A stretch of 64,000 nucleotides of DNA, taken from Limnobacter humi. GTDB taxonomy: Bacteria > Pseudomonadota > Gammaproteobacteria > Burkholderiales > Burkholderiaceae_B. The notes beneath the pieces are model-generated. The model did not search any database. It was not told the DNA's origin and saw only the letters and a program-made list of their open reading frames with translations. The position numbers were made by a program, and so were the translations under genes. Below are positions 1,483-55,996 of this stretch, piece by piece; position 1 is the first letter of the stretch; each line of letters opens with the position of its first letter. The stretch is from the NCBI RefSeq assembly GCF_024518835.1, contig NZ_JANIGO010000003.1, positions 248,001 to 312,000 on the forward strand, given 5' to 3'.

Positions 1483-2742
1483 TTACAGCAGCTGAAAGGC
1501 CAGAATGGCCACCACGGTGGGTGGAAATGCTGCAATGAACAAGCCGCCTGCACTGATGGCGCCATTGCTGAAATACGGTTTTAGAATGGCATAGCCCGCC
1601 GGGTTTGGCGCATTCGCGATCACGGTAAGGCCACCGCCGGTGACCGCACCTGCCACCAAGGCATATTTGAATTCAGGCCCGACACCTTCGACCAGCGAAC
1701 CCAGGTATGTGAGCGCCGCGTTATCGGTGATGGCGGTCAGTGCGGTTGCACCGTAGTACAGCGCTGTGGGGCTGAGCTTGGTGAGCACATCCTGCAGCCA
1801 CCAGGATTGCATACCGCCCAACACCACCAAGCCGGCCAGGAAGAAAGCGACCATGAGCCCCTCTTTCAAAATGAGGCGATCCTGATAGTCTTTGTACGCG
1901 GAAGCGTAGCCCAGGAAAAACAGGAACAAGCCCATGAAGACCGCTGCGTGGTGGGCAAATACCACCACACCCACCAAAAACAAGAGGTGCATGCCGATGA
2001 CCCAAACCGGCATGGTGTTCTCAGCCTTGTCCGCATCCGACACCCGAATGGCCGCTATTTCCTTGGCAAACAGCACGGTCACCACCATGGCATTCAAGAA
2101 AACAGCCAATGCGGCCTTCCAGCCAAAGGTGCTCAGCATGAATGACATGTCAAAGCCCCATTTGGCTGCCACCATCAACACGGGCGGTGCGGCGAAGGGG
2201 GTGAGTGTTCCGCCAATCGACACGTTGACGAACAGGGCACCCAAGGTGGCGTACATCAGCTTATTGCTCAAGCCCCGTGTGTAAAAGCGGTCACGCAGCA
2301 GGAAAGCGGCCAGTGTCATGGCGGCAGGCTCGGTGATGAAGGAGCCCATCAATGGCACAATCGACAGGGAGGTGACGAAATAGGCCACCTGCCGATTCAT
2401 CGGCAAGATGGACGCCAACCCGCGAACAATCATGCCAGCCAGCGTCAGGATGGGTTTGCTCGCTGCAATCACCATGATGGCAAATACAAACAAGGGCTCG
2501 GTGTAATTGCGCGTATCCAGATAGTGCACCGCTGCGTCATGGCCCTGCGCAAACGCCATGAACACCACCAGAACCATGGCCCAAAAACCAAACACAGCCT
2601 CCACTTCACCCAGCAGGTGCCACAAACCTGCATGGTTGGGCTGCGCATGTGCCAGCTTTTCGAAAAACTTGGTGGAGAAGGTGTGCAGCACGGCGATGGC
2701 AAACAGAGTGGCGCCGATGATGTCGATGGTGCTTGGATTCAC
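1483..2742 (-). CDS. Putative Na+/H+ antiporter (PF07399-like)
   Basis: Polytopic inner-membrane protein of 419 residues with about eleven hydrophobic segments, resembling the putative Na+/H+ antiporter family PF07399. Recognisable stretches are SFITEPAAMT (about residue 135) and GGTLTPFAAPPVLM (about 178), which look like re-entrant transport loops of the ion-transporter superfamily. The start codon is GTG at 2740-2742, just 22 bases after the pabBC stop, so it is probably cotranscribed with pabBC and with mgtE downstream. Coupling ion and substrate are inferred from the family only; a related carboxylate transporter is possible. Confidence 0.75.
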   Translation of the reverse strand: MNPSTIDIIGATLFAIAVLHTFSTKFFEKLAHAQPNHAGLWHLLGEVEAVFGFWAMVLVVFMAFAQGHDAAVHYLDTRNYTEPLFVFAIMVIAASKPILTLAGMIVRGLASILPMNRQVAYFVTSLSIVPLMGSFITEPAAMTLAAFLLRDRFYTRGLSNKLMYATLGALFVNVSIGGTLTPFAAPPVLMVAAKWGFDMSFMLSTFGWKAALAVFLNAMVVTVLFAKEIAAIRVSDADKAENTMPVWVIGMHLLFLVGVVVFAHHAAVFMGLFLFFLGYASAYKDYQDRLILKEGLMVAFFLAGLVVLGGMQSWWLQDVLTKLSPTALYYGATALTAITDNAALTYLGSLVEGVGPEFKYALVAGAVTGGGLTVIANAPNPAGYAILKPYFSNGAISAGGLFIAAFPPTVVAILAFQLL

Positions 2743-2764
2743 GGTGGGCGATCTCGCTGTGTGG

Positions 2765-4624
2765 TTATTGGACTGACGTGGGTACGGCGATCGTGGGGTA
2801 TGAAATCGCCACCCCCTGACCCACCACCTCGCGGACCGGGATCCACCCCCGAAGGCTGTTGATCAGCCAGACGGCCCGCGCACGCTGAAGGTCATTCTTC
2901 CGGAGCGACATTTCATGAATGGTATTGTGCTGCAAAAGGGCTTGGCGCAACACGCCCGCCAACAAATTGCTGCCTGGTTTGTTGGCTGGGGTAAACAAGG
3001 TTCCGTCCAGGTCCAGCACAATGTTGCAGCGGCAGGTCTCCAGCAGCAAGCCCTCCGCATTCCACAGCAATACATCGAACGCGCCATTGGCTTGCGCAAA
3101 TGCGTGGTCGTAATGCGGCCGATGGGTGGTTTTGTGCATCACAAAATCCGCCTGTGCCTCAAAAGGTGAATCTGCCAAGCGAAGGACCACACTGTCCGGC
3201 GTTGCGGGCATGGCATCACATTGCACGGTCAGGCGCCCCTCTGGGCTCAGCAACCAACGTCCCCGCCACTGACCGCTTGCATGCTGTTGAGCGGCTGTCG
3301 CCAAAACCTGGTGAACTTCCAGCGGATCCCACACGTAGCCGAAATGAACGGCAGATTGCCGCATTCGCTCAATGTGCAGGTGCTCCCGAGCCCAATGACC
3401 ATGGCTCAATGCCACGGTCTCCAGGATTTGAACCTCACAGGTTGACTGCCTCAGAAATACCGTTTTTTCCCACCACTCCCGATGCTCGGACTGCGCATTG
3501 GAGTACCAAGTGATACCACTGCCAACCCCGTACACCAAACCAAGCTCACCGTTTGCGCCCGATGGAGCAACCACTGGGTTCCACTGCACGGTCCGAATGG
3601 GTACGTTGAAATGGGCAGCGCCACCCGGGGCCAACACACCCAAGGCACCGCAATAAAACCCACGGGGTGCAGGTTCCCATTCGGCAATTCGCTTCATCGC
3701 CTGCGCTTTGGGTGCTCCGGTGACACTGCCGCACGGGAACAGGGCTGAGAAAACCGCCCGAAGCGGACAGTCGGCCCGGGTTTGTCCGATAATGGTGGAC
3801 GTCATCTGCTCCACCGTGGGCAATACCAAGATGTCGAACAACGACTGCACCTGTACGCTTCGAGGCAGGCAGACCCTGGCCAGGTCATTGCGCAGCAGAT
3901 CAACGATCATCACATTTTCCGCTCTGTCTTTGCTGGAATCGGACAAACGCCCGTCCTTCCACGCGGACAGATGGCTTTGGGCAGCCGTTGCACGGGTCCC
4001 CTTCATCGGCGAGGTGGTCAACCGGCCCTGCTCCCAGCGGAAAAACAGTTCTGGAGACAGGCTCAGAACAGCACCATCCGCATGCTCCAGAAAAAGGCTG
4101 TTGGCAGCGGGCTGTGCATTGAACAACTGGAGAAACAAGTTCCACGGTGAGTCCGCAGGAGCTGCTGCGGTCAAGCGCGTGGTCAGGTTGATTTGGTAGA
4201 ATTCACCAGCCGCAATGGCCTCGCGCGCCGCGCTGAACGCCGCATTGAATGCATCGGTGCGCTGCACATTGCACCAAGGGGTGGTTTTTATGGGCCTGGC
4301 AGGGTCCAAAAGCTCGGTCAGGCTCAAGGTGTGAACCTGATCGGCTTCATAGGCATGAAAAACAGCCAAAGGACCGGCATACCCGGCCGCCTGAACCGTG
4401 AATGCCGGGTCAAATGCGGGGGCCGCTTCGTACACGAGACCGCCCACCACCCACAAGCCTTGCTGAGCCCAGGTTTCAGCCTGATCCAGCGTCGGCATGA
4501 CGTCATGCAGTGTTCGTGCGGTACACACTTGCGCCGGTTTGCCTTGGGCCACACACAGTGCAGCAGGCAGAGATGGATCCAGCATGTGGGCATGCCAGGC
4601 GGCGGTGGGCTGCTTCACAGACAT
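2765..4624 (-). CDS. pabBC: Aminodeoxychorismate synthase component I fused to aminodeoxychorismate lyase
   Basis: Makes p-aminobenzoate for folate. The N-terminal ~370 residues are the chorismate-binding PabB domain and the last ~220 are a class IV PLP lyase (PabC). PMKGTRA carries the lysine that separates aminodeoxychorismate synthase from anthranilate synthase (which has PIAGT), and FPCGSVTGAPK is the family signature. In the lyase half, FVMHKTTHRPHYD holds the probable PLP lysine and ETCRCNIV the cofactor-binding loop. The 619-residue length fits known betaproteobacterial PabB-PabC fusions. The glutamine amidotransferase PabA is not in the window. It lies 77 bases downstream of the patatin-like gene on the same strand. 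Cytoplasmic. Confidence 0.93.
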   Translation of the reverse strand: MSVKQPTAAWHAHMLDPSLPAALCVAQGKPAQVCTARTLHDVMPTLDQAETWAQQGLWVVGGLVYEAAPAFDPAFTVQAAGYAGPLAVFHAYEADQVHTLSLTELLDPARPIKTTPWCNVQRTDAFNAAFSAAREAIAAGEFYQINLTTRLTAAAPADSPWNLFLQLFNAQPAANSLFLEHADGAVLSLSPELFFRWEQGRLTTSPMKGTRATAAQSHLSAWKDGRLSDSSKDRAENVMIVDLLRNDLARVCLPRSVQVQSLFDILVLPTVEQMTSTIIGQTRADCPLRAVFSALFPCGSVTGAPKAQAMKRIAEWEPAPRGFYCGALGVLAPGGAAHFNVPIRTVQWNPVVAPSGANGELGLVYGVGSGITWYSNAQSEHREWWEKTVFLRQSTCEVQILETVALSHGHWAREHLHIERMRQSAVHFGYVWDPLEVHQVLATAAQQHASGQWRGRWLLSPEGRLTVQCDAMPATPDSVVLRLADSPFEAQADFVMHKTTHRPHYDHAFAQANGAFDVLLWNAEGLLLETCRCNIVLDLDGTLFTPANKPGSNLLAGVLRQALLQHNTIHEMSLRKNDLQRARAVWLINSLRGWIPVREVVGQGVAISYPTIAVPTSVQ

Positions 4625-53789: not shown

Positions 53790-54683
53790 ATGAGCAATCA
53801 CACTTTTCCAATCGGATTTATTGGCCTGGGCAATATGGGCTCGGCCATGGTGCGCCGCTTGTGTGCGGCCGGCTACCCGGTGCACGGCTGGGCCCGCAGC
53901 GCCCACACCCGCTTGGCACTGGAAGACACGCCAGTCCGATTTCACAACACCATCGGCGAGCTGTGCCAACAGGTCCGGGTGGTCGCCCTGAATGTGACGC
54001 GCACCGAGGATGTTCAAGCGGTGCTGTTTGATGAAGGTGGCGTTGTGGCCAACGCCGCCCACGGTACCACCCTCATCGACTTCAGCACCATTGATGCCGC
54101 AGCCGTGAAGGACTTTGCGCCAACCCTGCGAGCACGAGGGCTGGAATACATCGACTGCCCAGTGTCTGGTGGGGTGACTGGCGCAAAAGCCGGCACGCTG
54201 TCCATGATGGCTGGCGGCTCCCGCAGCGCATTTGAGCCGCTGGTCCCCATGCTCAAACAGTTGGGCAAAACCATTCGTCATGTCGGCGACAGTGGTGCCG
54301 GTCAGGCCATCAAGGCAGCCAACCAAATGGCGCTGTGCATCCAGTTGGTCGGCATTGCCGAGGCCATGAACTATGCCCTGGAACAAGGGGCCGAACTGTC
54401 TGTGGTTCTCGAACTGCTGCAGGCCGGGCTGCCAGCCAGCCGAGTGCTGGACTGGGCCGGGCCGCACATGGTGGAAGGGTTTACACGACCACCCACCATT
54501 GAAGCCCACCTGCACGCCAAAGACGTGGACATGGTGGCACAGGCTGCGCGCGCCCAAGGCTTACATTTGCCATTGCTGTTCAAAACGGCTGAGCTGCTGA
54601 ATGAATTGATTGCAACCGGCCCCAAAAGCCAGGACACCGCGCGGGTGTTTGAGCTGGTGCACCGGCATTTGCGGGGTTCTTAA
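53790..54683 (+). CDS. NAD(P)-dependent beta-hydroxyacid dehydrogenase, 3-hydroxyisobutyrate/tartronate-semialdehyde reductase type
   Basis: Soluble oxidoreductase of 297 residues. Rossmann motif IGFIGLGNMGSAMVRR at the N-terminus, substrate-binding DCPVSGGVTGAKAGTLSMM near 120, catalytic lysine in AIKAANQMALCI near 172. It matches the GarR/HIBADH group; the exact hydroxyacid cannot be told. The start has no Shine-Dalgarno, consistent with the leaderless promoter placement. Confidence 0.9.
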   Translation: MSNHTFPIGFIGLGNMGSAMVRRLCAAGYPVHGWARSAHTRLALEDTPVRFHNTIGELCQQVRVVALNVTRTEDVQAVLFDEGGVVANAAHGTTLIDFSTIDAAAVKDFAPTLRARGLEYIDCPVSGGVTGAKAGTLSMMAGGSRSAFEPLVPMLKQLGKTIRHVGDSGAGQAIKAANQMALCIQLVGIAEAMNYALEQGAELSVVLELLQAGLPASRVLDWAGPHMVEGFTRPPTIEAHLHAKDVDMVAQAARAQGLHLPLLFKTAELLNELIATGPKSQDTARVFELVHRHLRGS

Positions 54684-55039
54684 AGCCATTACCGCGCAGG
54701 CCGCCCCAGCAACACCGGTAGCCCGTGCCGAACGCCCCCCGAAAAGTAAAGGTTGCCCTGCGCATCTCGAACCGGACCGATAACTCGCCACTGCGTGGCT
54801 CAAACATCTCGGTCCGTTTGTTCGAATGCTGTGCGGGTCAAACCGATCGGAGGGCTGACTGTTCGGCGCCGGGCACACCGGCATTGCTGGAGCGACCTCA
54901 GCGATCGCGAGGCTCAGGTTTTGAACAACAGATTGGCCGTCGCCAAGGGGTGTGAATGCGCAGGGCGGAGCAGGACTCCGATGCAAACAGTGAGCATCCT
55001 GCGGAGTCTAGGACTGGCACAGAAATAGAGGGGCCGACA
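54684..55039. other. 356-base non-coding, hairpin-rich gap
   Basis: No open frame here has a ribosome-binding site or family resemblance. Three clean hairpins are seen: CGGACCGA/TCGGTCCG (54773-54780 with 54809-54816) enclosing a nested GCCAC/GTGGC (54787-54799); GCCGG/CCGGC (54868-54882); and GACTCCG/CGGAGTC (54974-54980 with 55002-55008) enclosing ATGC/GCAT. It may be a structured RNA, a degenerate gene, or a palindromic element. Also the 3' end of the cysB-like gene begins at 55040. Confidence 0.55.
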
Positions 55040-55996
55040 TCAAATGTCGTACGCCTGCCCACCCCCCATCACGCGTTCAATCAACTTGGGCGTCAACATG
55101 GGCGCAAAGGTGCCAATAAACTCCACCATCAGCGTTCGCATGAACACACCCTGCCGCAATGCAATGCGCGTGGTATTGCGGCCAAACAGGTGGTCCACCG
55201 GCACGGCCACCAGGTGTTGGTCTTTCATGGCATCAAAGGCCACTTCGGCAATAATGCCCACCCCCAGCCCCAAACCCACATAGGTTTTGATCACATCGGC
55301 ATCAATCGCTTCCAGCACTACTTCCAGTTCTACCCCCGCTTTCTTGAAGGCCGCATCAATTTTTTTCCGGCCTGCAAAGTGGGTCTCGTAGGTAATAACG
55401 GGCAAGCCCTTGAAGTCGGCCAGCGCCATTTTTCGGGCTCCGCTGCCCTGAAAATCCTGAAGCCACTCCCCATCGGCCGGCGCAATGGCCACATGGCCCC
55501 AGTCATAGCAGGGCAATGTGACCAGATCAGGCTCATCGGCCAGGGCCTCGGTGGCCACAGCCAGATCGGCCTGGTCTTTGCGCACCCAATCGGCCAATTG
55601 CTCGGGGGTGCCCTGCAGCAAAATCAGTTTCACCTTGGGATACTTTTTTCGAAAGGCAGCCACCGCTTGTGGCAACACATAGCGGGCTTGTGTGTGGGTA
55701 ACTGCCACCGTCAACTGCCCACTTTCACGGGCAGCAAACTCCTCGCCCACGCGCTTGATATTCTCCAGTTCCGCCAGCACGCGCTCACAGGCCTGCACCA
55801 CCAGTTCACCAGGTGGCGTCAAACCCTTGATGCGCTTGCCATGGCGTTTGAAGATCTCGAAGCCCAACTCCTCTTCCAGCTCAATGATGGCTTTGGACAC
55901 GCCCGGCTGGCTGGTGAACAAGGCCTTGGCCGCGTCGGTCAGGCTGAAATTGTGGCGAACCGCTTCTCGAACAAAGCGAAGTTGGTGCAAATTCAT
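55040..55996 (-). CDS. cysB: LysR-type regulator of sulfur assimilation, CysB/Cbl-like
   Basis: Transcription activator of 318 residues. The N-terminal HTH (NLHQLRFVREAVRHNFSLTD, SQPGVSKAIIELE) and the CysB-type effector domain (SGQLTVAVTHTQARYVLP near residue 94) are clear; the latter Thr-rich stretch binds sulfate/acetylserine in CysB. Divergent from the sulfur operon and hence its likely regulator. The 77-codon upstream extension crosses the divergent promoter and is rejected. CysB versus Cbl cannot be separated here. Confidence 0.92.
   Translation of the reverse strand: MNLHQLRFVREAVRHNFSLTDAAKALFTSQPGVSKAIIELEEELGFEIFKRHGKRIKGLTPPGELVVQACERVLAELENIKRVGEEFAARESGQLTVAVTHTQARYVLPQAVAAFRKKYPKVKLILLQGTPEQLADWVRKDQADLAVATEALADEPDLVTLPCYDWGHVAIAPADGEWLQDFQGSGARKMALADFKGLPVITYETHFAGRKKIDAAFKKAGVELEVVLEAIDADVIKTYVGLGLGVGIIAEVAFDAMKDQHLVAVPVDHLFGRNTTRIALRQGVFMRTLMVEFIGTFAPMLTPKLIERVMGGGQAYDI

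Follow-up and report, generated by a model that had tools for sequence, protein, structure and literature searches.

The noncoding gap at positions 54684 to 55039 of the window, the 64,000-nucleotide stretch of Limnobacter humi DNA that was analyzed, is in our judgment probably a degenerate copy of a dispersed, two-ended element that is putatively mobile, probably nonautonomous, and so far found only in Limnobacter. The 356-bp gap is indeed free of genes, as the original prediction had it. The flanking genes end at 54683 on the plus strand and at 55040 on the minus strand, and the five mechanical open reading frames (ORFs) overlapping the gap had no Pfam match at an E value of ≤0.01. The gene on the left (53790 to 54683, plus strand) encodes an NAD-binding protein resembling 3-hydroxyisobutyrate dehydrogenase or 2-hydroxy-3-oxopropionate reductase (PF03446 and PF14833), and its product scores under the NCBIfam equivalog cutoffs. 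The convergent gene on the right (55040 to 55996, minus strand) encodes a CysB-family LysR regulator, scoring above the cutoff of NF009327 and containing PF00126 and PF03466.

The gap had been singled out as unusually rich in hairpins, and that observation proved to be right and understated. The nested hairpin at 54773 to 54816 can be read directly from the sequence, with an 8-bp outer stem (CGGACCGA/TCGGTCCG, 54773 to 54780 and 54809 to 54816) and a 5-bp inner stem (GCCAC/GTGGC, 54787 to 54791 and 54795 to 54799), and it appears in the folds of both strands. It is the mere tip of a far longer hairpin with arms at 54693 to 54719 and 54877 to 54903; these outer arms, inverted repeat I1, are 27 nt in length and 78% complementary. 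The gap folds to −174.5 kcal/mol on the minus strand (z = −6.58) and to −154.6 kcal/mol on the plus strand (z = −3.16), and for each strand, none of 100 shuffled sequences folded as stably. A separate hairpin at 54973 to 55009 (GACTCC/GGAGTC plus GATGC/GCATC), seen in both sequence and fold, lies outside the recurring part, as all same-genome matches other than the window itself end by query base 289 (window position 54972). This hairpin sits between the repeat remnant and the stop codon of the cysB-like gene and is absent from the other copies; it is possibly the 3′ end structure of the cysB-like gene itself. A covariance-model search of the window against Rfam gave no match at gathering scores and a single chance-level match (E = 2.7) in permissive mode, and nine other loci gave none up to an E value of 1. 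Terminator-like sites in the window were near chance, with two found and 1.3 expected.

A search of the source genome (G000) with the gap returned 72 aligned pieces at an E value of ≤10. These include 17 further long hairpin copies at 81 to 94% identity, copies whose absence, by the original prediction, would have counted against it. A full copy in this genome has two parts. One is a long hairpin, type A, with a tip that is often shortened. The other, typically about 115 to 170 bp beyond the hairpin, is a second domain that comprises a core arm, a closing stem, and a side hairpin that stays paired through changes of its letters and length. Twenty-nine sites were read in this genome, the window counted, and many were partial. 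In the window, the minus-strand end is intact: a hairpin of about 190 nt at 54693 to 54903, closed by I1, of the species' own type A (94.7% identity to the A module) and most conserved at 54704 to 54890. A consensus fold of 17 copies of hairpin A showed two opposed bulges, the 5′ one mostly AGTCA, as in the three-way-junction ends described below, and one long arm where those ends have the junction. The A end in the window itself shows both: a bulge of 5 nt, AGTCA, and one opposed to it on the 3′ side. Of the opposite, plus-strand end, a three-way-junction end of type B, only the 3′ half persists (54893 to 54963, matching B module positions 34 to 104 at 95.8%). Consistent with this, R1, our covariance model of the three-way-junction end, gave no credible match on 54600 to 55150 even when its filters were turned off (the top score was 4.5 bits). 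Of 26 other loci in the genome, 17 gave a full match and one more gave a weak match. The window copy is degenerate and broken, with one of its ends reduced by half, and is probably inert. The borders of the elements are blurred by short tandem terminal repeats. Tandem repeats of about 38 to 45 bp flank several elements (the left flanks of L008, L005, and L004, and flanks of L049 and L050); they differ between species and in G000 resemble the terminal arm. Perhaps they are footprints of earlier occupants.

The R1-type end is a three-way junction of about 130 nt (131 model positions), with a pair of opposed bulges and one arm that ends in a loop. From the base, the fold consists of a base stem, a 5-nt 5′ bulge, a stem of about 8 to 10 bp, an opposed 5-nt bulge, a long stem, and the three-way junction, which bears two arms, one short and the other the core arm, with its hypervariable stem and T-rich loop. 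The 5′ bulge is usually NTTCA or NGTCA; of 77 units, 67 had TTCA, GTCA, or ATCA at bases 2 to 5, and 70 had a run of T's in the region of the core loop. A tighter loop consensus fitted only 27 of the 77 and is not claimed. Six sequence types that can barely be aligned by their letters share the fold, from which L015 and type W depart locally. The fold was the same in 180 hits that had been kept by a fold-shape filter and in 26 aligned representatives (30 representatives were taken from the 180 hits, 26 were aligned, and 20 entered alignment A1). Plain MAFFT alignment followed by RNAalifold recovered just a short core stem, and a structure-aware alignment was used instead.

Pairing in the R1-type end is kept by compensatory change, and one strand folds. 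The least biased test used 98 sites collected by the loop motif alone, with no fold-shape filter. Here, a run of at least 6 pairs flanked the loop in 39 of 47 distinct flank pairs; over 500 redeals of the partners, the number that did so averaged 9.2 and never exceeded 18. In alignment A1 (MAFFT, 20 divergent units), 77.6% of 1,027 cells were paired and 40 of 53 pairs had changed on both sides, and none of 500 shuffles reached any of five measures. Sliding the partner strand lowered pairing to 30 to 50%, a comparison that favors the unslid structure in that its structure string was derived from folds of the same sequences. The mismatches that persist distinguish the strands: G·T exceeded A·C in core arm P4 (65 versus 7), in short arm P3 (22 versus 5), and in base stem P1 (22 versus 9), counted over distinct helix strings from 207 model matches, some at overlapping loci, and with binomial P values that assume independent cells, which related units do not supply. 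Since mutation alone would give about equal numbers, the R1 strand is the folding strand. Long stem P2 showed the opposite (G·T 57, A·C 93, and 269 other mismatches); it was excluded from the count over P1, P3, and P4, and we put its contrary strand count down to misalignment. An initial count over all helices had given G·T 54 and A·C 52, and its reading was reversed for P1, P3, and P4 and not for P2. For the A end of the window, covariation was weak, with a double change in 6 of 59 pairs and an unfavorable covariation term of +1.43; this end varies too little for its fold to be proven through covariation.

The organization of the ends was clearest in G010, whose genome is a single contig with 94 R1 units at 63 sites. 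Among neighbors less than 600 bp apart, 31 of 32 were a minus unit followed by a plus unit, 121 to 296 bp apart; the exception was a plus-plus pair at 586 bp. Typed by their P1 letters, 21 of 27 pairs were A plus B, one was A plus A, and the rest had Y-type or untyped ends; typing covered 27 of the 31 pairs, and one end called B looks Y-like. Thirty G010 units lay outside such pairs, and at least 13 of the 17 examined share a different conserved partner on their 5′ side, which R1 does not detect. In L285, L287, L291, and L300, for example, a unit with P1 GAAAGCCTGCC stands next to a different conserved palindromic partner. Such solo units make up another family of pairs. The role of the partner end falls to the A hairpin in G000. 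From the close-neighbor pairing and the partners of the solo units, it follows that the folded ends come in inverted pairs and that such a pair is the family's unit: two large, usually nonidentical palindromic ends, inverted with their 5′ sides facing across a short spacer.

Within the searches made so far, the family is restricted to the genus Limnobacter. At an E value of ≤1e−3, R1 found 4 to 94 units in 13 of 16 Limnobacter genomes, the high counts being possible lower bounds, as 150 candidates were scored per genome. It found none in G002, G011, and G015, whose completeness is 85, 65, and 93%, respectively. Searching by blastn with a whole copy gave matches in 8 of the 16 genus genomes, the source genome included, and the best matches outside G000 span the core arm or the second domain. 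A core pattern had hits in 12 of the 16 genomes, and its reversed form had two hits in all. In a draw of 250 genomes from the order, only G000 and G004, both of this genus, matched R1, and the other 248 had no unit under filters stricter than those used within the genus, which could miss weak relatives. A hit outside the genus, in G290, was set aside as a 50-base match at 80% identity in surroundings that look coding by eye. Carriage by phages or plasmids was likewise rejected: blastn of one full copy against phage and plasmid collections gave no match, and one IMG/VR contig (L111) has the core motif but no R1 unit. We did not find these repeats described in the open-access literature searched, nor do they match Rfam.

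The elements lie between genes, and these are mostly convergent. By a crude longest-ORF caller, the 56 G010 sites comprised 33 convergent, 19 tandem, and 4 divergent gaps, against a baseline of 46 convergent, 95 tandem, and 31 divergent for all adjacent gene pairs in those loci, the element gaps included. In G000, there were 13 convergent, 13 tandem, and 1 divergent (n = 27, from 28 of the 29 loci, with one at an edge). The site downstream of cysB holds an R1 unit in 8 of 14 relatives; by eye, G008 has a fused remnant and G013 has nothing, with three loci left unread. The element types found there in relatives differ by eye from that of G000. It seems that the place is old and that the occupant changes, and the empty site in G013 may represent a loss. 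Downstream of cysB in G005 (L175), the folded unit is gone and, again by eye, the outer arms adjoin, an arrangement that loss of the hairpin would leave.

REPINs are doublets of REP sequences that form hairpins (PMC3116915). They resemble the Limnobacter element in being extragenic and present in many copies, in their inverted doublets with a spacer and their compensatory changes, in having singlets that are read as remnants, and in having no transposase inside the element (PMC3116915). An inverted doublet with a spacer, compensatory stem changes and, by the crude ORF caller, an extragenic position were all found here. A REP unit is short, for example, 14 to 40 nt (PMC12306157). The R1 ends of about 130 nt and the window end of about 190 nt, each with two opposed bulges, are too long for REP units, and the two ends of a Limnobacter pair are usually of different types. 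RAYT (Y1_Tnp), the usual transposase of REPINs, is missing from G000 and from 14 of the other 15 genus genomes. The element acts much as a giant REPIN would, yet we do not class it as one because of its length and the absence of RAYT. Prokaryotic MITEs are short, mostly noncoding, and dispersed, with a stable stem-loop and intergenic positions (PMC10969869), and the Limnobacter element shares each of these features. It differs from MITEs in that its ends are conserved in shape more than in sequence, and searches for Y1_Tnp and RVT_1 yielded no parent insertion sequence.

Like the Limnobacter units, with their TCA, elements derived from IS200/IS605 carry a short conserved unpaired motif by the hairpin foot. 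In the IS200/IS605-derived palindromes, subterminal hairpins are read single stranded, with this motif near the foot. The Limnobacter ends differ in being inverted and not on the same strand, and a Y1 transposase is absent from 15 of the 16 genomes. IS608-type excision acts on one strand, and the inverted ends put the folding strands on opposite DNA strands, so that strand-specific ends in this arrangement do not fit it. Integron attC sites fold as single strands, combine variable stems with conserved bulges, and can flank genes, three features that the Limnobacter ends share; the Limnobacter ends, however, are dispersed inverted pairs and not arrays.

Our search for a mobilizing enzyme covered Y1_Tnp and RVT_1. 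A RAYT or IS200-type mobilizer was rejected, PF01797 (Y1_Tnp) having no match in G000 and being present in 1 of the 16 genus genomes, G009. In the genus set, Y1 transposase was matched just twice, on C97 and C102 of that genome (L172 and L173), which carries 6% contamination. Reverse transcriptase, which retrons would bring to the carriers, was rejected as a common mobilizer as well: RVT_1 occurs in 5 of the 16 genomes and in 4 of the 13 carriers, is absent from G000, G008, and G010, and does not track the element. We propose that a trans-acting enzyme would read each end as a folded single strand and would copy or move the pair of ends into gene 3′ regions. The shape, bulges, and loop would be what this enzyme reads, leaving the stems to drift freely.

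The original prediction had offered a structured RNA, a mobile palindromic element, or a decayed gene, and its interpretation is partly supported. Of the conditions that it had set for refutation, loss of the stems and lack of other copies were checked, and neither refuted it. That the gap is an ordinary 3′ one with hairpins arisen by chance or a gene in decay can be dismissed as very improbable. Mechanical ORFs do overlap the gap, and one frame of the other copies looks protein-like by eye; dispersed copies, covariation, a fold z score of −6.6, and the lack of any Pfam match refute this reading. That hand-read frame had nothing above the Pfam cutoff, and its hits below it (E = 0.1 and 0.15) were discarded. 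For the structured-RNA option, the word structured holds, given the covariation of the R1-type end, and the word RNA fares less well. Under that reading, a small RNA or 3′ untranslated element would be transcribed outward from each pair, be copied by duplication, and act in the cell. The excess of G·T over A·C on one strand in three helices, the unpaired bulge kept in 67 of 77 units, the loop T run in 70 of 77, and the location at gene ends all suit it. We nevertheless regard it as rather unlikely, as Rfam has no match, up to 94 units per genome have stems that vary freely, and inverted pairs of different end types are needless for an RNA. In addition, a scan of 24 of the 31 G010 spacers found no promoter-like site in any of them, against 1.36 by mononucleotide shuffling, although this is a weak test.

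DNA sites or mRNA 3′-end sites that are useful to the host, kept by selection for termination, mRNA stabilization, or topoisomerase binding as proposed for REPs, are an explanation that we hold to be possible, if on the whole unlikely. Enrichment between convergent genes speaks for it. So does the cysB site, where 8 of 14 relatives carry an R1 unit; a host function could be why so many species have the same site filled. Terminator-like sites near chance in the window, unit numbers that range from 0 to 94 across species, and conserved bulges that appear to exceed what a terminator needs all count against it. A mobile palindromic element is the best supported of the three original options, with dispersed copies, inverted pairs, and types that differ per species at one site.

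Three minus-to-plus pairs detected by R1 enclose 1.1 to 1.5 kb, two in G010 and one in G004. The G010 pairs, at C1 2842550 to 2844334 (L281, 2551 to 4335) and 3291560 to 3293063 (L282, 2561 to 4064), are A plus B; in the pair on contig 10 of G004, at 1900 to 3195 (L225, 1501 to 2796), both ends look B-like by eye, against the A-plus-B rule. One enclosed gene set has a C92 YaeF/YiiX-type papain-like protein (PF05708, E = 1.2e−7) beside an unknown protein, and another has an NlpC/P60 protein (PF00877, E = 4.3e−16) beside an unknown protein; both domains are of peptidoglycan-hydrolase kinds. In the G004 pair, a short ORF neighbors a 132-amino-acid ORF whose M15 hit is below threshold (E = 0.17). 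The GC content of the enclosed genes is 0.43 to 0.48, compared to 0.53 to 0.58 in neighboring genes. As a rough estimate, chance alone would place one or two neighbors within 1.6 kb if about 60 sites were spread over 3.5 Mb; the count in G010 is three, one of them minus-minus. The ends of a fourth wide A/B pair are separated by 3.9 kb, and by eye the genes between them appear to be housekeeping ones. It is conceivable, if quite doubtful, that the paired ends are boundary sites of a new mobile gene cassette, in which an enzyme would move the DNA between two single-strand three-way-junction ends and most copies would be empty. As a lead and not a result, the low-GC sets of a peptidase and a small protein resemble antibacterial effector-immunity cargo.

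With 13 carriers and 3 genomes without a match, a search for the partner protein is feasible. The hypervariable paired stems around fixed bulges constitute a natural mutagenesis set for DNA or RNA that is read by its structure. Up to 94 recognized units per genome, with no Rfam match and no RAYT, point to either an unrecognized mobilizing enzyme or an unrecognized use of folded sites at gene ends. If the cargo reading were true, the elements would represent a new means of exchanging antibacterial genes among bacteria.
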